NCBI GenBank assembly: GCA_021199655.1
Contig: JAJQHQ010000076.1
Location: 1 to 63,293, forward strand
DNA: 63,293 bases
Direction of reading: 5' to 3'
Origin: Lachnospiraceae bacterium
GTDB taxonomy: Bacteria; Bacillota; Clostridia; Lachnospirales; Lachnospiraceae
Shown: piece after piece, positions 11,681-23,486 of the stretch
Layout: the number at the start of each line of letters is the position of its first letter
Numbering within the stretch: position 1 is the stretch's first letter
The notes under the pieces: generated by a model
Seen by the model: the letters and a program-made list of their open reading frames with translations, nothing else
Told to the model about the DNA's origin: nothing
Database searches by the model: none
Made by a program: the position numbers and the translations under genes

Positions 11681-12001
11681 ATGATTATAATAAATACGCA
11701 GGAGCAGTTTGAACTGGAAGTGCTCAAAGCGGACAAGCCGGTGCTGGTGGATTTTTACGCCGACTGGTGCGGCCCGTGCAAGGCGCTCGCGCCTTTGATC
11801 GAAGAACTGGATCAGGAGGCGGAAGATTACCTTGTGGCAAAAGTAAACGTCGACGATTTCACAGAAATCGCACAGCAGTATCGCGTGGCTTCCATTCCCA
11901 CGGTCCTCATTTTCCGCGGCGGGGCGTGTGTGGAGAGAAACGTCGGACTTACCAGTAAAGACGAACTGCTCAAACTGGTTCATGGGGAAGCAACCGTGTG
12001 A
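11681..12001 (+). CDS. trxA: Thioredoxin
   Basis: A 106-residue thioredoxin with the active site WCGPCKALAP at about residues 28-37 and the conserved cis-proline motif SIPTVLIF. It reduces protein disulfides in the cytoplasm. The length is exactly that of a canonical bacterial thioredoxin. It stands alone, without a visible thioredoxin reductase gene nearby, and is preceded by GAAAGGACAGCC. Confidence 0.96.
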   Translation: MIIINTQEQFELEVLKADKPVLVDFYADWCGPCKALAPLIEELDQEAEDYLVAKVNVDDFTEIAQQYRVASIPTVLIFRGGACVERNVGLTSKDELLKLVHGEATV

Positions 12002-12079
12002 TCTGTGTGAACAGCTTATATTTTGAATGATACTTTTTGAACTGCGTTTTAACGACAGGGTATAAATCAGAAAACAAAG

Positions 12080-12221
12080 CTCCAAAGGAGCAAAAACAAG
12101 GCAGTAAACGAAATAGAAAACAAAAAGCAAAACAAAAAGCAAAACAGAAAACAAAACAGAAAACATAACAGAAAACAAAAACAGAAAGCAAAACAAAGGA
12201 CAATCAGAAAACAAGACAGAA
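12080..12221 (+). repeat. A-rich low-complexity leader of guaA
   Basis: The spacer before guaA consists of short imperfect repeats of the form AAAACAGAAAACA / AAAACAAAAAGC, almost free of T on the top strand. The mRNA leader would be long, unstructured and purine-rich. No purine riboswitch motif is present. Confidence 0.75.
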
Positions 12222-12233
12222 ATGGAGAGGCAA

Positions 12234-13778
12234 ATGAAAAGAGAGACAGTCGTAGTTCTGGATTTTGGCGGACAGTACAATCAGTTGATCGCAAGACGTG
12301 TGCGCGAGTGCGGCGTGTACTGCGAGATTTATTCCTATAAGACAGATATCGAAAAAATCAAAGCCCTGCAGCCCAAAGGCATCATCTTTACCGGCGGCCC
12401 GAACAGCTGCTACGAGCCGGGAGCACCCACTTACACAACAGAAATCTTTGACCTCGGCGCGCCAATCCTGGGAATCTGCTACGGTTCCCAACTCATGATG
12501 CACCTGCTTGGCGGGACAATCGGCAAAGCTCCGGTCCGCGAATACGGAAAGATTGAAGTGACCGTAGATCAGAGCTCGAAGCTCTTTACCGATGTATCTG
12601 AAAAGACCGTCTGCTGGATGAGCCACAACGACTACGTAGCCGAGATGGCGCCGGGCTTTAAGGCCATCGCCCATTCCGACAACTGCCCCTACGCCGCGAT
12701 GGAAAATACAGAAAGAAGCCTTTACGCGACCCAGTTCCATCCGGAAGTGCTGCACACCAAAGAGGGGCAGAAAATGCTCTCAAACTTCGTCTACAACATC
12801 TGCGGCTGCGCCGGAGACTGGCGCATGGATTCCTTTGTAGAGCAGTCCATCGCAGCCATCCGCGAAAAAGTCGGAGACGGCAAAGTGCTCTGCGCCCTTT
12901 CCGGCGGCGTAGATTCCTCCGTAGCTGCCGTCCTGCTCTCCAAAGCAGTCGGCGAACAGCTTACCTGCGTCTTCGTCGACCACGGCCTTCTGCGCAAAAA
13001 CGAAGGCGACGAGGTCGAAGCCGTATTCGGCCCGGACGGCCCCTATAAGCTTAATTTCATCCGCGTCAACGCGCAGGAACGCTTTTACTCCAAACTTGCC
13101 GGAGTCACTGAGCCCGAGCGCAAGCGCAAAATTATCGGTGAAGAATTCATCCGTGTTTTCGAGGAAGAAGCCAAAAAGATTGGCGCAGTCGACTTCCTTG
13201 TTCAGGGCACCATCTATCCGGACGTGGTAGAGAGCGGCGTCGGCGGCGAATCTACCGTCATCAAATCCCACCACAACGTCGGGGGCCTGCCCGACTATGT
13301 CGATTTCAAAGAAATCATCGAGCCCCTGCGCGACCTCTTCAAAGACGAAGTCCGCCGCGCCGGCCTCGAACTCGGCATTCCGGACTATCTGGTCTATCGC
13401 CAGCCGTTCCCGGGCCCCGGCCTCGGCATCCGCATCATCGGCGACGTGACCGCCGAAAAGGTAGCCATGGTACAGGACGCAGACGCCATCTGGCGTGAAG
13501 AAATCGCCAACGCCGGTCTCGACAAGACCATCAGCCAGTATTTCGCCGCCCTCACCAACATGCGTTCCGTCGGCGTCATGGGCGACGAGCGTACATACGA
13601 TTACGCCATTGCGCTCCGCGCCGTCACTACCACCGACTTCATGACCGCTGAGAGCGCTCAGGTGCCGTGGGAAGTCATCGAGAAAACAACCAGCCGGATC
13701 GTCAATGAGGTGAAACATATCAATCGTGTATTCTATGATTGTACGGGGAAACCACCGGCGACGATAGAACTGGAATAG
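12234..13778 (+). CDS. guaA: GMP synthase (glutamine-hydrolysing)
   Basis: A 514-residue GMP synthase that converts XMP, glutamine and ATP to GMP. The N-terminal amidotransferase domain has the nucleophile in GICYGSQLM and the His/Glu pair in FHPEV. The ATP-pyrophosphatase domain has the P-loop [12 protein letters not shown], and the C-terminal dimerisation domain ends in [11 protein letters not shown], the normal terminus. The start is placed at the ATG at 12234, since GGAGAGG lies just upstream; an ATG 12 bases earlier overlaps that site. A strong terminator follows. Confidence 0.96.
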
Positions 13779-13851
13779 ATTTGTAAATTATAAGTATATG
13801 AAAATAATATAAAAGTCGGTAAAATGATTAAATTTTATTGCAAAACGGCAC

Positions 13852-13888
13852 AAATACCGGGAGACTATAGTTTCTCCCGGTATTTTAT
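13852..13888 (+). terminator. Intrinsic terminator after guaA
   Basis: ATACCGGGAGA and TCTCCCGGTAT form an 11-bp perfect stem with a short loop, followed by a T-rich tail (TTTATT). It separates guaA from the AT-rich defense island. Confidence 0.85.
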
Positions 13889-13980
13889 TACAAAAAAGAT
13901 TTATATTAAAGTTGAAAATTCCTATTTGATTTATAGACATAATTTATTATATGTGTTATACTTCGAAAAAGAGAAAGGAG

Positions 13981-14727
13981 ATGAGTGCTATAAAATTACA
14001 ACCGGAAAACTTTAAATTGGAAGACACCACCATATGGTCATTTCCAGATCGTGGAAGTTGGGCCACACATTCCGGCAAATATCGCGGAAACTGGTCGCCA
14101 TATGTACCACGAAATCTTATTTTACGATACACCAGAAGAAATGATTGGGTATTAGATCAGTTCTTAGGAAGCGGGACAACATTGATCGAGGCAAAGTTGC
14201 TTGGCAGAAATGCAATCGGCGTCGATGTGAATCCGAATTCTATCAAGCTATCTAATTCAAATCTTCACTTTACTTATCAGGAAACTTCTAAAATATTCAC
14301 TAAACAGGGCAACGCAAGACAATTATCATTCATCAAAGATCAAAGTATAGACTTGGTCTGCACTCATCCTCCATATGCGGATATTATCCATTACAGCCAG
14401 GATATACCGGAAGATATATCACATTTGGCGTATGAGGATTTTCTGCAGGCGATGGAGGATGTAGCAAGAGAATCCTATCGCGTTTTGAAAGAAGGTGGAA
14501 TCTGTGCATTTATGGTTGGCGATATTCGCAGAAAGGGATATGTATTACCTCTTGGAATGAATACCATGCAAAAATTCACAGATGTGGGGTTTATTCTAAA
14601 GGAGATTATTATCAAGGAACAACATAACTGCCGGTCTGCCGATTATTGGGATGGGCGTGAAAAGACATTCCTGATGCTGGCTCACGAATATATTTTTGTG
14701 TTAGAAAAACGGAGTGATGAAAATTAA
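13981..14727 (+). CDS. DNA methyltransferase (N4/N6 amino type)
   Basis: A 248-residue S-adenosylmethionine-dependent DNA amino-methyltransferase. The cofactor motif FLGSGTTLIEAKLLGRNAIG lies in the N-terminal half, and the catalytic motif is THPPY (a DPPY variant with His) at about residue 127. The start (TTIWSFPDRGSWATHSGKYR) matches a widespread phage/defense-island methyltransferase type. It may protect DNA on its own or work with the restriction cassette 430 bases downstream. The start is uncertain: AGGAG touches the ATG at 13981 with no spacer, and an in-frame ATG at 13951 has no ribosome site. This is the left edge of an AT-rich region. Confidence 0.82.
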   Translation: MSAIKLQPENFKLEDTTIWSFPDRGSWATHSGKYRGNWSPYVPRNLILRYTRRNDWVLDQFLGSGTTLIEAKLLGRNAIGVDVNPNSIKLSNSNLHFTYQETSKIFTKQGNARQLSFIKDQSIDLVCTHPPYADIIHYSQDIPEDISHLAYEDFLQAMEDVARESYRVLKEGGICAFMVGDIRRKGYVLPLGMNTMQKFTDVGFILKEIIIKEQHNCRSADYWDGREKTFLMLAHEYIFVLEKRSDEN

Positions 14728-14924
14728 GGTAGACATGAAATAGCTGTTAGACGGTGGTTAGCGGTGTGTTGGCAGCCCATGTCTGCCCATGAGACGGTAG
14801 CGCTGATGATAGACCTTGAAAAATCAGCGAACGCTGAATTGAGTGTTGCGTAAAGTGAATTCCTATGATATACTGGCAGTAGAAAACGAAAGTATGTTCG
14901 ACATGAATAGTTAGGTGAATAGAT

Positions 14925-15137
14925 ATGGCTGTCAGTTATAAAAAGTTATGGAAGTTGCTGATTGATCGGGACATGAAGAAAAAGGACTTGTGTGCATCGG
15001 CTGGGATCAGTCATGCATCCATGGCAAAGCTAGGAAAGAATGAAAATGTTACGACTGATGTACTCGTCAAAATATGTACTGCTTTGAAATGTGACATCAG
15101 TGATATCATGGAGATAACGGAAGAAGTTGAACAGTAG
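14925..15137 (+). CDS. XRE-family transcriptional regulator (possible restriction controller)
   Basis: A 70-residue Cro/CI-type helix-turn-helix protein: MKKKDLCASAGISHASMAKL is the HTH, followed by the typical CTALKCDISDIMEI end. It lies 17 bases upstream of the endonuclease gene. Small proteins of this kind in that position act as controller (C) proteins that delay restriction until methylation is complete. A candidate -10 (TATGATATACT near 14860) lies about 65 bases upstream. Its role as controller is inferred from position. Confidence 0.85.
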   Translation: MAVSYKKLWKLLIDRDMKKKDLCASAGISHASMAKLGKNENVTTDVLVKICTALKCDISDIMEITEEVEQ

Positions 15138-15154
15138 GAGGTAATAGATAAGGA

Positions 15155-15844
15155 ATGAATTTTAATGAATACATAAACGATGAACTTTTAGGCAAATTTG
15201 ATTTTTATAATTATGGACATGCATTGGAAATATTATATGATGCTTTTCCGGAGGAATGGGGAGAATTACAGGATTGCTTAAAGCAGTTACGTCTTACGCT
15301 TACAGATATAAAAAAAGCAGGCGGAAATGAATCTCCTATACCCAAAAAGTTTGATGATGTTTTATATCCTTATGGTTGGAGAGAGATTCGAATCAGCGGT
15401 GATCTAATAGTAAAAAAATATCCGCGTCAAACAGCTCAACGAAGAGGACGTTTTGCTGATGAACCATATGAAGTAGAAACAATAGCGGGATACATAGATG
15501 GACACAATATTGATTTCTTGAAAAATCGTGTTGCGTTTGACTTGGAGTGGAACAGCAAAGATCAAACCTTTGATAGAGACTTGTTGGCAATGAGGACATA
15601 TTTTGATTGTGGACTGATTGATGTTGGGGTTATTGTTACGAGAGCTGAAGAACTTAATGATATTTTTAAGCAAGAAAAAGATGATAATGGTCAATTCTTA
15701 ATGAAGAAATACGGTGCCAGTACTACATGGATGGGAAAGTTGATTTATCGTCTTGAATCGCGGCGTAATGGTGGGTGTCCAATCTTAGCGATAGGTATAG
15801 GAAAGGAATGTGTTGAAGGATATGGCAGACTTGATGAGCACTAA
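15155..15844 (+). CDS. BglII/BstYI-family type II restriction endonuclease
   Basis: A 229-residue protein of the BglII/BstYI endonuclease family. The block GHALEILYDAFPEEWGEL, the IKKAGGNESPIPKKFDD segment and the core around D120, D129 and E131 (HNID...FDLEW) followed by NSKDQTFDRDL are diagnostic. The D-x8-D-x-E spacing fits a PD-(D/E)XK-type metal site. Known family members cut AGATCT or RGATCY, so a GATC-centred site is the best guess. The gene is flanked by a small regulator and an MT-A70 methyltransferase whose start overlaps its end by 35 bases, a classic compact type II cassette. Confidence 0.88.
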   Translation: MNFNEYINDELLGKFDFYNYGHALEILYDAFPEEWGELQDCLKQLRLTLTDIKKAGGNESPIPKKFDDVLYPYGWREIRISGDLIVKKYPRQTAQRRGRFADEPYEVETIAGYIDGHNIDFLKNRVAFDLEWNSKDQTFDRDLLAMRTYFDCGLIDVGVIVTRAEELNDIFKQEKDDNGQFLMKKYGASTTWMGKLIYRLESRRNGGCPILAIGIGKECVEGYGRLDEH

Positions 15845-16466
15845 AAAGAATCTGCAGGAGTTTACTGCAGGTAAAAAGTACAATACAATTTATGCAGATC
15901 CGCCTTGGCAATTTCAAAATAGAACTGGAAAAGTTGCGCCGGAGCATAAGAGATTAAATCGCTATGAGACTATGTCCGTAAACGATATTAAAGCCTTACC
16001 TGTTTCTGATATTACCGGAGACAAGGCACATCTTTATTTATGGATTCCGAATGCGTTGTTGCCGGACGGATTGGCAGTTATGGATGCCTGGGGGTTTGAA
16101 TATAAAGGAAACATTGTCTGGGAGAAAATTCGTAAAGATGGTGGACCAGATGGACGCGGAGTAGGTTTTTATTTTAGAAACGTAACGGAGTTGCTTTTGT
16201 TTGGAATAAAGAAAAAAAGTGCACCTAATCGGACATTGCAACCGGCGCGATCTCAGGTTAATTTGATTAGAACTATGAAGCGCGAACATAGTCGTAAACC
16301 GGATGAAATTATCCCTATAATTGAATCGTGCAGTCAAGGCCCTCGAATTGAACTTTTTGCCAGAGGCGTTCGTGAAGGTTGGGATATGTGGGGGGATCAG
16401 GCGAATGAAGACTATGAACCAACCTGGAATACATATTCAAATCATACCGTCGCACAAGCAAAATAG
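15810..16466 (+). CDS. MT-A70-family adenine N6 DNA methyltransferase
   Basis: A 218-residue MT-A70 methyltransferase with the catalytic DPPW at about residues 30-33 and the C-terminal KPDEIIPIIESCSQGPRIEL region with FARGVREGW. It should methylate adenine at N6 and protect the site cut by the upstream endonuclease. The frame opens with GTG at 15810 (AGGAAAGGA upstream), overlapping the endonuclease gene; an ATG at 15822 is an alternative. Known BglII-group methyltransferases include cytosine-N4 enzymes, so pairing with an MT-A70 enzyme is a noteworthy exchange of partner. Confidence 0.88.
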   Translation: MLKDMADLMSTKKNLQEFTAGKKYNTIYADPPWQFQNRTGKVAPEHKRLNRYETMSVNDIKALPVSDITGDKAHLYLWIPNALLPDGLAVMDAWGFEYKGNIVWEKIRKDGGPDGRGVGFYFRNVTELLLFGIKKKSAPNRTLQPARSQVNLIRTMKREHSRKPDEIIPIIESCSQGPRIELFARGVREGWDMWGDQANEDYEPTWNTYSNHTVAQAK

Positions 16467-16515
16467 TCTGGTAAACTAGGGAACATACGAAAAATGTAAA
16501 AATGGAGGACAACAA

Positions 16516-17619
16516 GTGGAAACGTCTAAGCCAATAGTGTTTGTCATTACACCTTTTAATGAGGACTTTTTGGCATTGTTTGAAGAATTTAAGCAAAAAT
16601 TTGGGACTTTATATGAATTTACAAATGCAGGAGATTTGGATAACCAACAAAATATTTTGAAGGATATTGTTGAGGGGGTTGCTACTGCGGATGTTATTAT
16701 TGCAGATCTGACAGGACTGAATGCAAATGTGTTTTATGAATTAGGCTTAGCACATGCAATGGGTAAGAAGGTAATTATTATTACGCAGGATATTGATGAA
16801 TTACCTTTTGATATTAAATCATATAGAGCTAATCAATATAGTTTACAGTTTAATAAATTGCCGGATTTAATAACGGAACTTAATAAATTGCTTAATGGAG
16901 CAATTGATGGAAGTATTAAATATGGAAATCCGGTTATGGATTATGCTCCCAATTTTAAAAATCCGCAGATTGAAAGAACTGTGGGTCCTGTAGCAAGCAC
17001 TGAGAAAACAGCGGATACTGTTGATGAAACTGAAGACGAAAACGATGGAGGATATTTAGATTATATTGCTGACGTTAACGAAAATGGGAAAATGATGGTT
17101 GACGAATTAGGACTAGTATGTTCAGAAATGACAGAGATGTCTCGTTCTATCACAAAAGCTACAGAGGACATTAATAAAGTAAAGGGTAAGTCTGGAAATG
17201 TTGATCCTATATTCGTTAGGAATGTTTGCCGGAAGTTATCGGAACCAGTAGATAGTTATGCTGAAAAGTTAAAGACTCATATTGAAAAAATTACCGAATA
17301 TTGGAATAAAATTGAAAACAGTTATCTCGAACTTTTGGATAATCCATTTATTAGAAAGACTCAAAATATAGAAGAATTAAAACGGTCTATAACTGCTTTG
17401 GATAAAATGCAAACGGCAATTGATGCTTCTAATAATCAAATTGAAAACCTTATTATTAGCGCACAAGGAACTGTCGGAATAGAGAGAAGACTCACAAAGG
17501 CAGTTAAAAATCTAATATCTGTTTTGCAAGCTTATCTCACAATGACTAATACAATTTCTTCATCTGGTGATCGTATAAATAGCAAAAGTGAAATCATAAT
17601 TAGTGAAATATCTGATTGA
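16516..17619 (+). CDS. Nucleoside deoxyribosyltransferase/TIR-like domain protein
   Basis: A 367-residue protein. Residues 1-125 look like the nucleoside 2-deoxyribosyltransferase fold related to TIR: IVFVITPFNEDFLALFEEF, then ADVIIADLTGLNANVFYELG with the likely catalytic Glu75, and AHAMGKKVIIIT. An acidic linker (about 150-180) follows, then about 190 residues of predicted long helices rich in Lys, Glu and Asn. The domain could bind or cleave a nucleotide such as NAD or deoxynucleosides and the helical part could sense or oligomerise; this is inference. It opens with GTG after GGAGGACAACAA and lies between a restriction cassette and a HEPN gene, suggesting a defense role. Confidence 0.7.
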   Translation: METSKPIVFVITPFNEDFLALFEEFKQKFGTLYEFTNAGDLDNQQNILKDIVEGVATADVIIADLTGLNANVFYELGLAHAMGKKVIIITQDIDELPFDIKSYRANQYSLQFNKLPDLITELNKLLNGAIDGSIKYGNPVMDYAPNFKNPQIERTVGPVASTEKTADTVDETEDENDGGYLDYIADVNENGKMMVDELGLVCSEMTEMSRSITKATEDINKVKGKSGNVDPIFVRNVCRKLSEPVDSYAEKLKTHIEKITEYWNKIENSYLELLDNPFIRKTQNIEELKRSITALDKMQTAIDASNNQIENLIISAQGTVGIERRLTKAVKNLISVLQAYLTMTNTISSSGDRINSKSEIIISEISD

Positions 17620-17742
17620 TACAGAATGGTGTATTTTATCATTGTAGATAATACGGGTTTATCTGTAAATGGGAATACTCTAAATATAAATTGCAAGCCA
17701 TTGGCGACAACTCCAAATAAAATATGAAAGAAGAGAATCTTT

Positions 17743-19230
17743 ATGAGCGAAGAATCAGATATGACTTTTTCAGAGGTTGCAGCAGAAATGGATCGGCTGA
17801 TTCTATCTAAGAATTATACGGATTTAAAATTATATTTGGAACAATTAAAAAATGGATTACATTTATATACTCAATCAGAATGTTTTCCCCTTTATTATTA
17901 TATGGGGACGGGATATGGTGCGTTGGCTGATCATTACAGAGATATAAGTGAAGATAAGGATGTTGCGCTTGAATTCAGAAAATGGTCATTCTTTTATTTG
18001 AGAGAAGTAATAGAGCATTACGAACAAGAAGACAGTAATTCTATACTTTTGATGTGCGCATATACAAATTACGCTAATGGCTTAGATTCTTGTGGACGAG
18101 TGATTGAGGCTCTTAGAATTTATCGGAAAGCACTTACCCTAAATCCACAATTTGGTATGGCCTTAGGTAATTATGGAAGAGCTTTAAAATTTTATGCAAA
18201 TATGGTCAATGATCCAGGCCATTATAGAGATTTACATAGTTTTGCATATCACGCATTAAAGGATGCAGTAAAAATAAAAGATCCAAATTTTCATGAAGAT
18301 GCAATACAGAATTTTCAGAAAAACATAGGTGAGTATGAGGAGTTATTGCCAAAAGCTGTTTTAGAAGAAGCAATAGTATATAAGGAATATGATCTTGGTG
18401 AGTTGGATGAAAGACAATACAGAATATGGTGTTTGAAGAACCACCTTTTTCTAAATCCTTTAAATGATTTATTGGAAGAAGAATCTGCCTTTGCTCATGA
18501 TCCGTTGACAATTACTGTGTTGACAGAAAATGTTTTAGAAAAAAATATAGAAAATAGGAGTAGTGGAGCACCACCTAAATGGTTTGCAATGCTTAACCAG
18601 TTAAAGGAAGAATATATTTTTTCCAGATGGATGTGTTATGAGGGAATTACTAAAGAGAGGCAAGTACATTACGCGGATCGAGAAGTAAAACTGTCTCTCG
18701 CAAGTTATGATTATGCAAATTATTCGATCAGATTAGAACAGCTTAAGGCAGCATTTAAAGGCGTTTTTTCCATATTTGATAAAACAAGTTTTGTTATAAA
18801 TTTATTTTGGAATTTGGGTTTTCCCGAGAGAAAAGCAGATGCAGCACACGTTTTTAAATCTTCTGACTATCCTTCAAACAACGTAGCTTTAACAGCGTTA
18901 AGATGGAGCTATTTTGAATTTGAGGAAAAATATGGTAATGCAGATAGGGCTTCAGAGAGAGCGTTAAAGATATTACGTAATGCATTGGAACATAAATTCA
19001 TTAAAATACATGAATATTCGTATGGAGGGAAACTTCAAATCGAAGAAGATTATTTTTATCATATTAGCGAAAATGATTTGAAAATACAAACTATTCGATT
19101 ATTAGAGATCGCACGTGAGTGGCTTATGGAACTTGTTTATGCTATCGGTATTGAAGAGGGTAAAAATAATCGTGCAGATAATGCGGTGCAATTGAATGTG
19201 GCTGACTTTGATGATCGGTGGAAAGTTTAA
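17743..19230 (+). CDS. TPR-HEPN protein, LA2681-like predicted RNase
   Basis: A 495-residue protein. The N-terminal half has TPR-like helical repeats (for example LRIYRKALTLNPQFGMALGN near residues 120-140). The C-terminal half resembles the LA2681-type HEPN domain, with the R-x4-H nuclease motif RNALEH at R412-H417 followed by KFIKIHEY. HEPN domains of this type are metal-independent RNases used as toxins and in abortive defense. It lies 123 bases after the NDT-like gene in the same orientation. The pair may form one system: a nucleotide-processing or sensing protein and an RNA-cutting effector. The family assignment is from memory of motifs; no search was possible. Confidence 0.75.
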   Translation: MSEESDMTFSEVAAEMDRLILSKNYTDLKLYLEQLKNGLHLYTQSECFPLYYYMGTGYGALADHYRDISEDKDVALEFRKWSFFYLREVIEHYEQEDSNSILLMCAYTNYANGLDSCGRVIEALRIYRKALTLNPQFGMALGNYGRALKFYANMVNDPGHYRDLHSFAYHALKDAVKIKDPNFHEDAIQNFQKNIGEYEELLPKAVLEEAIVYKEYDLGELDERQYRIWCLKNHLFLNPLNDLLEEESAFAHDPLTITVLTENVLEKNIENRSSGAPPKWFAMLNQLKEEYIFSRWMCYEGITKERQVHYADREVKLSLASYDYANYSIRLEQLKAAFKGVFSIFDKTSFVINLFWNLGFPERKADAAHVFKSSDYPSNNVALTALRWSYFEFEEKYGNADRASERALKILRNALEHKFIKIHEYSYGGKLQIEEDYFYHISENDLKIQTIRLLEIAREWLMELVYAIGIEEGKNNRADNAVQLNVADFDDRWKV

Positions 19231-19264
19231 ATATTTATGATGTAAGAACATTACTAATCTAAAA

Positions 19265-19306
19265 GCCACCGGTCTTAGCTCCAAATGAGTTCCGAAAACC
19301 AGTGGC
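19265..19306 (+). other. Hairpin after the HEPN gene
   Basis: GCCACCGGT (19265-19273) and ACCAGTGGC (19298-19306) form a 9-bp stem with one mismatch. No T-run follows on the top strand. It may be a transcription or mRNA end structure for the HEPN gene. Confidence 0.4.
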
Positions 19307-19490
19307 CTGCCTGACAGATATACGAGATGAATTAAAATATGTGGCTACATTTTGGCTACAAAAATTATGTGGACGAACCGGAATGCCCGAATAAATCATC
19401 ATAATCCGGACAAAATGCGCACTGATAATGCGCTTTATAACCTTTCGAACGATTGTAAAAGACGAGTTCGAGTGAAAATACGTTGTTAAA

Positions 19491-19685
19491 TTAAAAATTA
19501 AGGAGTTGCTCGAAGAAAGAAATATAATACAAAAAAATTAGCTCAAATGACTGGAATTAGAGAATCTACAATAAGTGATGTCGTCAGGGGGCACGCGCAC
19601 GGTTATTAATTTTGAGCATCTGTCTAAAATTGCGGAGGCGTTAGAGATTTCTGAAATTTCACAAATCATAGATTTTGAAAAGTGA
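19491..19685 (+). pseudogene. XRE-family regulator, broken by frameshifts
   Basis: Pieces of a small Cro/CI-type regulator are readable in three successive frames: IKELLEERN, then KKLAQMTGIRESTISDVVRG (the helix-turn-helix), then INFEHLSKIAEALEISEISQ ending at TGA (19685). Two frame changes separate them, one in the AT-rich stretch near 19525 and one near 19595. The intact relative would be about 65 residues and would resemble the regulator at 14925. The rest of the 614-base spacer between the HEPN gene and 19845 shows no other gene. Confidence 0.75.
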
Positions 19686-19844
19686 CACATGAGTATATTA
19701 TTAAACAAAGCTGTAAAAATCTTGCGTTTAAAATAAAAGAGAGTTATTAAACAACACAGCCTGAAAATCACGCAGAATACTCAGCAGCCGAAATATTATG
19801 TAATTGATGCGATTGATAGATGCAAAAGAGAAAGGATAAAAGGA

Positions 19845-21826
19845 ATGAAACCGTTGGAACAAAAATTGCTAAAACTACTATCGAATAATGATGTAACTTT
19901 TTTCATTCCACCGTATCAGAGAAATTATGAGTGGACAGAAGAACAGTGTAATATATTTTTTGAAGATGTAGTAAAGACTCATGACAAGAACGTGTCTGGT
20001 AATTTAGCTGAACACTTTTTTGGGACAATTACATATTTTCAGACCGAAACTGTATTTGGGCAACCTAACAAATTGATTTTAATTGATGGGCAGCAACGTA
20101 TTACTACTACGATGTTGTTTCTCACTGCATTACGTGATTTGTTGCCGGACCAAAGCCTGAAGAAATTTATTAATACCAAGTATTTGAAAAATGATAATGT
20201 AGATGGCGATTCTGAATATAAAATCAAGTTGAAACAGGTAGAAACGGATTGGAGTGCATATAAGAAAATTATTCTTGGTGAAGAATTGAGTGGAACAGAG
20301 AAAACATCCAGGGTTAGTAGCAATTATAACTTATTCAAAGTGCTATTGACTGAATACAGCAATGACGGAAATCAGATTGAACCTTTGATTAATAATGGAA
20401 TTGATAAGTTTAGTGTTATTACGATTGAATTAGAGCCAGACAGAAATCCGTGGGAAAATCCACAAGAAATATTTGAATCAATGAATTCACTTGGAAAGCC
20501 ACTTTCGCTGGCGGATCTTGTGCGAAATTACCTTCTTTTGGGGCTTAATGCTGATACGCAAGAGAAATATTATCGTAAATATTGGCTACATATTGAAAGA
20601 ATTTTGCCTGGACAGGTATCAAATTATATAAGAGATTTTATGCAATGGCGCACTGAGGGATCTTTCAAACAGGCTACGGAAACAAATTATAAAGAGTTGT
20701 ATGCTCTCTTTAAAAATCAAAATTATTATGGTAATAATGCAGAAGATATACTCAAGGATTTGTATACTCATGCGGAATTGTATAGTTGCATTATTTCGGA
20801 TAGATCAACAGGAAATACGAAGGTAGATAATATACTAGCTGATATTAGGTATCTTCGTGTTACAACCGCGTATTCATTCTTATTAGCGTTACTTTCCGAA
20901 TGGAAAGAAGGAATAATCAATGGCAGTGGTACAGAAGAAATACTCGATGCGTTTCGTATATATTGTATGAGACGACGCTTAATTGGACTGACGGCTGCAG
21001 AAAACAAAGCCTTTCCAGTGTTGGTAAAGCAAATAAGTAAACTTGAGTGCGCAGATGATAAACGTCAAGAAACTTTTAATATCTTATCGAAGCAAGAAAG
21101 TAACCTTCGGCTTCCGAATGATGTTGAAATAATTAATACATTAAATGGGGCAAATTTTTTAATTATAAGTACTGTAAATTCTTCTTGGCTTTAGTTGAAG
21201 AAAAAATAACTAGAAGTCGTCCGGATTTATCAGATAAGAGGCTGCAAATAGAACATATTATGCCACAGACATTGAATGATATTTGGCGGCAGGAGCTGGG
21301 AGATGATTGTGAATCCGTACATCAGGAATATGTACATAATATAGGAAATTTAACTTTGATTCGTCATAATCAAGAGCTTGGACAGAAGTCTTTTGTAGAA
21401 AAGAAAGACACCTATCAGAATAAAGCGGGACTTCAAATAGCAAAGACAAACATCGTTGATCAGGACCATTGGGATAAAAATACGATAATTGCCAGGTGTT
21501 TTTGGATTGTGAATTATATTGTGAAGGAGGTTTTACCTATTCCAGAATCAATGAGGAAAACTAATAATTTTTCCTTAAAGGAGAAAAGAGGCTTGTCATT
21601 TATTGAATTACAAATTGTTGGGGAATATATTCAATTCCACAAAGAACCATCTATATCCGCAAAAGTGGTTTCAGATAAGGAGGTTGAGTTTGAAGGGGAA
21701 AAATGGCGACTATCTAAAATTACTAAAGAACTTCAAAAACGCAGAGGTGAACTTTCTGCCTCAGGAGCCTATAACGGAGCACAATATTGGGATTATGATG
21801 GAATGAGGTTGTCAGATATTATGTAA
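19845..21826 (+). pseudogene. GmrSD-like DUF262/DUF1524 nuclease, frameshifted
   Basis: Two adjacent frames make one about 660-residue protein of the GmrSD type. The first (19845-21194) carries DUF262: FFIPPYQRNYEWTEEQ and LIDGQQRITTTMLFLTAL, the NTP-binding DGQQR motif. The second (to 21826) carries the DUF1524 HNH nuclease: LQIEHIMPQTL and HNIGNLTLIRH. They are separated by one lost base in the T6 run at 21155-21160; adding one T restores a continuous reading through the expected NYKYCKFFLALVEEK junction. GmrSD-like enzymes cut DNA with modified cytosines. The lesion may be inactivating, a sequencing error or a phase-variable switch. Confidence 0.85.
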
Positions 21827-21902
21827 TTTTGTTATAGTAATATTTATATACCATCGGTGATGGCTCTCCAGTGAGTTAATATATTAGAAAGGATTTGCAC
21901 TT

Positions 21903-23443
21903 ATGGAACTGGAAATTGGGATTGAGGATTTGCTGCGAAAATCCAGAGTAGAGTCCTCACGCATTGAATTTAAGGCTGGTTGGAATCCGGATGATATTTA
22001 TCACAGTATTTGTGCCTACGCCATGATTGCAATAACGAAGGCGGCGGATATATTCTGGTGGGTGTTGAGAAGAAAAATGGAGTAACAGTGCGACCGGTAA
22101 AGGGACTTCCAGAATATATGCTGGATGACATCCAAAAAGAAATGGTTGGATATAATAATGTCATCTCACCGGCATATTTTCCGCGACTCGTTCCTTTGGA
22201 AGTGGATGGCAGATGGATACTGGTAATTGTTGTCCGAACCGGGCAGCAGAGACCATATAAGGTACCGGATTATGTCACTGGTAAAAAGGACAAAAAGTAT
22301 TATTATTACATTCGTTATGGCACGAGTTCCGTTTGAGCAAATTCGGAGCAGGAACGGGAACTGATTGCCATGACAGATCAGACGCCGTTTGACTGTAAAG
22401 CAAATCATAAGGCGACATTTGCTGATATTTCGCCGGTTCTTTTGGAGGACCATTTGCGGAAGACCGGAAGCAAATTGGCAAAGCAGGTAAGAGAACGAGG
22501 AGTAGAGGCGATCTTAGAAGAAATGCAACTGCTTGAGGGGCCGCCAGAGCTCCGCTATATCCAGAATGTAGCGCTGATGATGTTTTGTGAACATCCTGAG
22601 AAATTTTTCCGCTATACCTATGTGCAGATGACTATATTTCCGGAAGGAAGCATTAAAAATCCGAGCCTGAGTGAGGATTATCCGAACATCACCGGTTCTG
22701 TTCCGCAGATGATACAGGCGACGATGGAACGCTTTCGCAATCTTTTTATCCGAGAAAAGGTCATCAAGGTGCCGAATCAGATGGAGTCGCTTCGGATTAT
22801 GAATTATCCGTATCAGGCTATCGAGGAGGCTGTTGTAAATGCATTTTATCACCGAGATTATATGACCAATGAACCAGTGACGATTGAAATTGAGCCAGAT
22901 TGTATCAATATTATGAATTTTCCGGGAATAGACCGGTCGATTTCAAGTGCTACGATTGCGGAGGGACGTAGATTTGTATCACGGTATTATCGAAATCGGC
23001 GTCTGGGAGAGTTTTTAAAAGAACTGGATTTGTCAGAAGGCCATTCATCGGGGATTCCTACCATACAGGATGAACTTGAGAAAAATGGTTCTCCAAGAGC
23101 GGAATTCTTTACAGATGATGACAGGCGGGCAATGCGGATTCGTATACCGATTCATCCGGCGTTCCTGAAATCCAATGATTTAGAAGAAGGAAATGATAAC
23201 TATGTTCAAAATGAAAATAGTTTGAAAGAAGTTTTGAAAGAAGTTTTGAAAAAAGCAGATTTTAATAAAGTGGTTTCTATTATTGAAATAATTGATAGAG
23301 ATGGTGAAATTACGCCGATGAAAGCAAAAGAAGTCTGCGGAAAATCAGAAACAACAACGTGGAGATATTTACAGATATTAACGTCAACAGGATTTGTTGT
23401 AAAAACAGGAAATACCAATACCTCGGTCTATAAAAAGAAGTAG
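21903..23443 (+). pseudogene. AlbA_2 / RecG-like ATPase-domain regulator, broken
   Basis: A gene of the AlbA_2 (schlafen-like) plus GHKL-type ATPase family, otherwise about 510 residues. The start [20 protein letters not shown] is intact. One A is missing at about 22023 (the frame changes before [14 protein letters not shown]), and a CGA-to-TGA-like in-frame stop sits at 22334-22336. The ATPase-like part (YPYQAIEEAVVNAFYHRDY) and a C-terminal winged-helix region continue in frame to 23443. Such proteins are usually DNA-binding regulators or helicase-like accessory proteins. The two independent lesions argue for true decay. Confidence 0.85.
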
Positions 23444-23486
23444 ATGATGGGGAATAATGGATATATTGTAAGAAATGGGGGGATGT

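Follow-up and report, generated by a model that had tools for sequence, protein, structure and literature searches.

Anantharaman et al. 2013 (Table 1; PMC3710099) list the LA2681 family of HEPN domains (PF18733) and its fusion to TPR repeats, with the entry 'Fused to TPR, and in operon with TPR'. Another HEPN protein, DS-11, is described in the DefensePredictor report as a CBS-HEPN single-gene defence whose sensor domain is proposed to control the HEPN nuclease (PMC13092281). On the nucleotide-processing side, the DUF4062/Swarozyc proteins join a TIR-like NADase to an accessory domain (PMC13174449), and Thoeris, with its TIR protein ThsB and its partner ThsA, offers a precedent for a TIR protein signalling to a second effector (PMC11204291). 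Here we compare these systems with two adjacent plus-strand genes on a 63,293-nucleotide stretch of a Lachnospiraceae contig (JAJQHQ010000076.1, positions 1 to 63,293, hereafter called the window): gene 1 (16516..17619), which encodes a 367-residue protein with an NDT/TIR-like N-glycosidase domain and a helical tail, and gene 2 (17743..19230, ATG start), which encodes 495 residues with TPR-like repeats and an LA2681-type HEPN domain. A first-pass annotation had read the two open reading frames, whose coordinates and 123-base gap we confirm, as a single system in which gene 1 signals to the gene-2 effector.

That interpretation is partly supported: the domains and the defence-island setting were called correctly, the single-system inference is not supported, and a new two-part immune system is unlikely. 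Both proteins carry domain matches far beyond chance and invariant catalytic residues, and the two genes do not co-occur elsewhere in the set that we examined. We conclude that genes 1 and 2 are probably independent, single-gene candidate defence cassettes, neighbours in a guaA-linked island whose cassettes turn over fast, and that each adds a candidate to a known kind of defence enzyme. The nearest tested parallels that we came across are DUF4062/Swarozyc for gene 1 (PMC13174449) and DS-11 for gene 2 (PMC13092281).

Genomic company of the two genes

Few of the genomes searched hold either family. With the window's own genome counted each time, PF18733 was detected in 3 of 144 relatives and 4 of 398 phylum genomes, and the gene-1 profile in 2 of 391 class genomes and 4 of 392 order genomes (both at E ≤ 1e-25) and in 2 of 398 phylum genomes (E ≤ 1e-20). 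A single-protein search with gene 1 over the 144 relatives returned 8 genomes at E ≤ 1e-3, own genome included, and in the seven others the matches were confined to residues 4-176. Four other genomes gave matches into the tail, namely G519, G1093, G1005 and G885, the last as a fragment close to a contig tip, while G074 matched over the N-terminal domain only; tailed gene 1 was found in 1 of 22 genomes of the order of G885 and in 1 of 20 of the family of G519, in each case the starting genome itself.

The conserved side-by-side order expected of a two-gene system was found in no other genome or locus examined. PF18733 was absent from all nine other gene-1-positive genomes, whose gene-1 matches reach the tail in two (G519 and G885) and stay within the N-terminal part in seven, and gene 1 was absent from all five other HEPN genomes; as a positive control, both reciprocal queries match their own genome in other searches. 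Local profiles built from 115 HEPN and 120 gene-1 proteins were furthermore run over 147 loci, of which 30 matched the HEPN profile and five matched both, every one of the five being the window itself. Outside the window, HEPN genes stand at 17 independent places (6 genomes, 10 of 18 plasmid records and the single phage record), none of which carried a gene-1 relative (E ≤ 1e-4) in the examined flanks; the HEPN neighbours there vary, comprising a type III restriction gene, an AbiEii-type gene, a helicase, transposases and others. Among HEPN relatives whose start is visible, the closest (L003, 52%) has unrelated genes on one side and, by eye, an integrase-like gene on the other, with no gene 1 beside it. 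Conversely, gene 1 stands in G519 and G1093 among genes that look metabolic or regulatory rather than defensive by eye, with no HEPN gene, and in G1005 near genes that, by eye, look like CRISPR-Cas genes. On viral contigs, neither the HEPN protein, the HEPN profile nor the gene-1 protein found any relative; the gene-1 profile found 97, of which the 80 retained all match only within residues 1-143, and none of those 80 contigs carries a HEPN match. Finally, the pair is not described in the accessible portions of the literature that we searched, supplements excluded, on LA2681 HEPN, on HEPN and TPR proteins in anti-phage defence, or on NDT/TIR defence.

A sister genome of the same genus, G013, shows how the neighbourhood of gene 2 can differ. 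Its contig C60 matches the window at 12001-15126 (94%; the comparison starts at 12001) and again at 17719-17891, the 5' end of the HEPN gene (90%), and its contig C52 matches 17890-23458 (98%). The G013 island thus retains the methylase, HEPN and GmrSD genes, while in the methylase-HEPN interval of C60 a D12 methylase, an AlwI endonuclease and an AAA_15 ATPase (OLD/AriA-like by PADLOC) stand where the window has the BglII cassette and gene 1, so that other, unrelated genes precede the HEPN gene. A search of the whole G013 genome found gene 1 nowhere. The left edge of the HEPN homology, at 17719, lies 24 bases before the HEPN ATG. The BglII cassette is present in G011, G008 and G045, in which a single-protein search did not find gene 1, and cassette homology to the window ends there at 16467, 16454 and 16450, respectively, within 16 bases of the methylase stop. 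Because homology ends at 16450-16467 and resumes at 17719, gene 1 is flanked on both sides by cassette edges. In a further genome, G032, the methylase, the D12 methylase and AlwI are accompanied by a GmrSD gene of another kind, and searches found no gene 1 and no HEPN gene there. The sister-genome comparison illustrates how little two genes' being neighbours in a hotspot says about their forming a system.

Predicted activities of the two proteins

Gene 1 starts at a GTG codon with GGAGGA upstream. Its product scores 30.3 bits with PF05014 (Nuc_deoxyrib_tr; cut-off 28.8, E 5.2e-7) over residues 40-107 and also matches a PADLOC TIR-effector model (E 1.5e-9), in agreement with the NDT/TIR-like call of the first-pass annotation. 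In its structure model a predicted alpha/beta domain (approximately residues 1-145) is followed, after a linker of low confidence (148-176), by four long helices (180-366), the long helical tail noted earlier. The best fold matches are MilB, DNPH1 and NDT, with TIR effectors nearly as good, and a TIR-type fold with a catalytic Glu is present. MakA (7p3r) was rejected as a fold match at a root-mean-square deviation of 37.7 A.

The predicted catalytic glutamate, Glu75 (codon 16738..16740, plus strand), is the same in all 58 sequences of the alignment, that of the window among them, and aligns with the Glu of the DNPH1 YELG motif. Equally invariant is Phe9 (codon 16540..16542, plus strand; 58 of 58), which we place at the MilB F17/DNPH1 Y24 position because model residue 3 aligns with MilB residue 11 and DNPH1 residue 18; the structural alignments report only their end residues, which leaves room for a local gap. 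That position is a ribose/deoxyribose switch (PMC10603095), and in NADase TIRs it is usually Phe or Ala (PMC11204291). The Tyr that hydrogen-bonds the catalytic Glu in deoxy-specific enzymes, Y24 in DNPH1, is thus replaced by Phe in gene 1, a substitution that, as a reading of residues, argues against 2'-deoxy substrates. The general-acid position D80 of DNPH1 falls opposite Ile51 in an ungapped alignment, with an Asp, Asp50, one residue earlier. We predict that the N-terminal domain cleaves ribonucleotides, most likely NAD+ or a nucleoside monophosphate. In the mechanism that we envisage, the helical tail would sense infection or oligomerise, upon which the N-terminal domain would cut the N-glycosidic bond of the ribonucleotide via Glu75.

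Family libraries match gene 1 convincingly over the N-terminal domain only. Weak tail matches to PADLOC PDC-S06 (E 7.4e-4) and LeoA (0.0025), to phrog_1499 (E 3.8e-4), to NCBIfam (0.0069) and to chemotaxis receptors in the PDB (E 8e-4) were dismissed as helical or coiled-coil composition. A tail-only query (residues 178-367) matched eight proteins, none with the tail fused to another N-terminal domain: all six with a precomputed Pfam domain carry PF05014, and two have none listed. A virus-structure search returned only N-terminal-type or poor long matches. Phage records and phage protein families also contain N-terminal domains related to that of gene 1. Compared with MilB, DNPH1 and NDT, whose matched solved chains span about 115-165 residues, gene 1 is set apart by its linker, its helical tail of about 190 residues and its island setting. 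It also differs from SPARTA TIR-APAZ, TIR-STING and DUF4062/Swarozyc proteins in having no Argonaute, STING or DUF4062 Pfam match: the comparison with MedPIWI MID gave E 0.15, far below the cut-off, and DUF4062 was absent among the 10 Pfam families at E ≤ 1. Unlike in Thoeris, the neighbour of gene 1 is a TPR-HEPN protein in a pairing that we did not find conserved, and PADLOC identified no ThsA in the adjoining MT-A70 methylase or TPR-HEPN protein. The tailed NDT/TIR family, full-length and well conserved, is the less explored of the two, and it carries a testable prediction, namely cleavage of ribonucleotides rather than deoxynucleotides.

Three of the four other tailed gene-1 copies are split between frames (L146:7069-8252, L147:450-1516 and L124:8640-9500). 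The G1093 copy, at a run of eight A, and the G1005 copy are split in the linker region, and the G519 copy has a stop in the N-terminal domain between G and A runs and a tail that ends early; phase variation, decay or assembly error could each account for the splits.

Gene 2 matches PF18733 (HEPN_LA2681) at E 3.4e-44 (151.1 bits, cut-off 27) over residues 276-471, covering profile positions 6-204 of 204. Its R-x4-H motif, R412 to H417 (RNALEH, 18976..18993, plus strand), had been singled out in the first-pass annotation together with the TPR region, and both stand: R412, E416, H417, H440, R458 and E459 are the same in 56 of 56 aligned sequences, and R412 and H417 are also invariant in a separate alignment of 61 rows. 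TPR-like helical repeats span approximately residues 3-207, with fold matches to TPR proteins over 2-209, although all Pfam TPR models fall below their cut-offs (best TPR_2, E 1.6e-4, residues 106-149). The gene-2 model, built from 56 rows (predicted local distance difference test score 84.9, predicted template modelling score 0.88), places helical repeats in the N-terminal half, and fold searches returned only TPR and other helical matches; because they hardly tested the C-terminal half, this does not speak against a HEPN domain, the call of which rests on the Pfam profile.

Gene 2 is accordingly a predicted HEPN RNase, judging from its sequence. Its profile match, R-x4-H motif and N-terminal TPR-like region are shared with LA2681 HEPN proteins, from which we see no clear difference (PMC3710099), except that its upstream neighbour is NDT/TIR-like rather than a TPR gene. 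In DS-11 the sensor is CBS rather than TPR, and DS-11, as described, is apparently not of the LA2681 family (PMC13092281). A HEPN-MNT toxin-antitoxin arrangement would include a nucleotidyltransferase, and a Pfam scan of genes 1 and 2 and seven neighbours detected none. In the activity that we propose, the TPR domain of gene 2 would keep its HEPN RNase inactive; binding of a phage-derived or host signal to the TPR region would release it, whereupon the R412/H417 site of a gene-2 dimer would cut RNA and stop the infected cell.

Two LA2681-HEPN genes elsewhere have overlapping companions. In G434, a gene at L023:8838-9860 overlaps the HEPN gene start; its motifs look SIR2-like, and it has no library or structure match. 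In G061, a gene at L019:11475-12860 that has no library match overlaps the HEPN gene and ends in an R-x4-H-like RGAVAH, and is possibly a second HEPN gene.

Alternative explanations for the locus

If genes 1 and 2 formed a true two-gene system, gene 1 would make or remove a nucleotide signal, for instance of the ADP-ribose type, and the TPR-HEPN protein would read it as the RNA-cutting effector. Such a design, for which Thoeris would be the model, fits the same-strand adjacency across 123 bases, the invariant catalytic residues of both proteins and the meeting at one locus of families that are rare in genomes. A simple scan of low power likewise found no plus-strand promoter-like or terminator-like site in the gap, the scanned region holding 7 promoter-like sites against 16.3 in shuffles. 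It is nonetheless improbable in light of the missing co-occurrence in the nine and five reciprocal genomes and the 17 HEPN places, the different genes that precede HEPN in the sister genome, and a Pfam scan of gene 2 that detected no nucleotide-sensing domain. Several observations do weigh against independence of the two genes, or narrow the tests behind it. The GC contents of gene 1 (32.9%) and gene 2 (33.6%) are nearly equal, and the genes, being co-directional and close, could be co-transcribed. The HEPN gene of G013 is broken by a frameshift into two frames, so a partner may have been lost there secondarily, which weakens that comparison; contig tips of G013 (L135:1-47 and L020:12117-12166) break inside HEPN at the same place with non-homologous ends, as an insertion would leave them. 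Neither family is rare in a large protein database, which gave 1081 gene-1 matches and, among 7996 candidates scored, 187 HEPN matches, nearly all on contigs outside the neighbourhood counts, and the closest relatives of both proteins sit on metagenome contigs that the co-occurrence counts likewise leave out. These relatives share 53-62% identity in the case of HEPN (P0001-P0060, except for P0007, a fragment at 94%) and 53-69% in the case of gene 1 (P0122-P0160). Moreover, the HEPN proteins at 15 of the 17 places are distant relatives, at about 23-32% identity to that of the window, tailed gene-1 relatives in context number four only, three split-frame and one a contig-tip fragment, and the HEPN check in G1093 and G1005 covered just 16.0 and 9.0 kb. 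A narrower version, to which we give very little credence, would restrict the pairing to one gut lineage, in which infection would lead the tailed TIR-like enzyme to turn NAD+ or a further ribonucleotide into a small signal that acts through the TPR region to switch the LA2681 RNase on, the pairing being recent or limited to metagenome-contig relatives; if true, a HEPN effector would here respond to a nucleotide signal in a system other than CRISPR.

Somewhat less improbable, though still unlikely, is that gene 1 is an ordinary nucleoside or nucleotide salvage enzyme, a deoxyribosyltransferase or a DNPH1-like sanitiser with no role in defence. PF05014 is a named family and the best fold matches belong to such enzymes, whereas the invariant Phe in place of the deoxy-specific Tyr, the added linker and tail, the patchy distribution among genomes, the phage-borne relatives of the N-terminal domain and the almost equal matches to TIR effectors all point away from it. 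That the island is decaying, with one or both genes as non-functional remnants, we regard as very improbable: the neighbouring GmrSD and AlbA/HATPase genes are split in the window, and the broken G013 HEPN and split tailed gene-1 copies speak for it as well, but genes 1 and 2 of the window are open at full length with all invariant residues kept, and the splits of the neighbours are absent from G013 and may be assembly errors. Independent cassettes thus remain our preferred explanation.

The guaA-linked island

The two genes lie between a restriction cassette and broken defence genes, as the first-pass annotation had stated. The island (13951-23443) is of low GC and follows a core gene at 12222..13778 (plus strand, as are all genes below) that from its sequence we take to be guaA (GMP synthase), which flanks the island in G013 and G032 as well; its GC is 55.9%, against 33-43% for the island genes. 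The first island gene is an N6/N4 DNA methyltransferase (13951..14727; PF01555, E 5e-28) with 93-94% DNA identity to the G013 and G036 copies, followed by the restriction cassette, a BglII-type endonuclease (15155..15844; PF09195, E 7.3e-44) and an MT-A70 DNA methyltransferase (15810..16466; PF05063, E 5.2e-29). Downstream of gene 2 come a GmrSD/HEC-06-like Type IV restriction gene (19845..21826; PF03235 and PF07510; Orf5/HEC-06 by PADLOC, from the best 25 families, as also considered for the methylase at 13951) and an AlbA_2/HATPase_c_4 gene (22010..23443; PF04326 and PF13749), each in two frames in the window and in a single frame in G013 (660 residues and 513 codons, respectively), both at about 98% DNA identity, so that the splits may be assembly errors.

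Among genomes of the genus the cassettes of the island vary, with BglII, AlwI, the AAA ATPase, HEPN and two kinds of GmrSD among those that change. An element of about 210 bases 3' of the HEPN gene (19263-19475), perhaps an island-end repeat, has further copies in G032 and G036 (83-84%); shorter matches to it span 129 bases in G040 (95%) and about 80-107 bases in G013 and G038 (78-80%). In G011, a BglII-type restriction-modification pair (L137:5586-6915) lies between genes recognised by eye as ECF-transporter-like.

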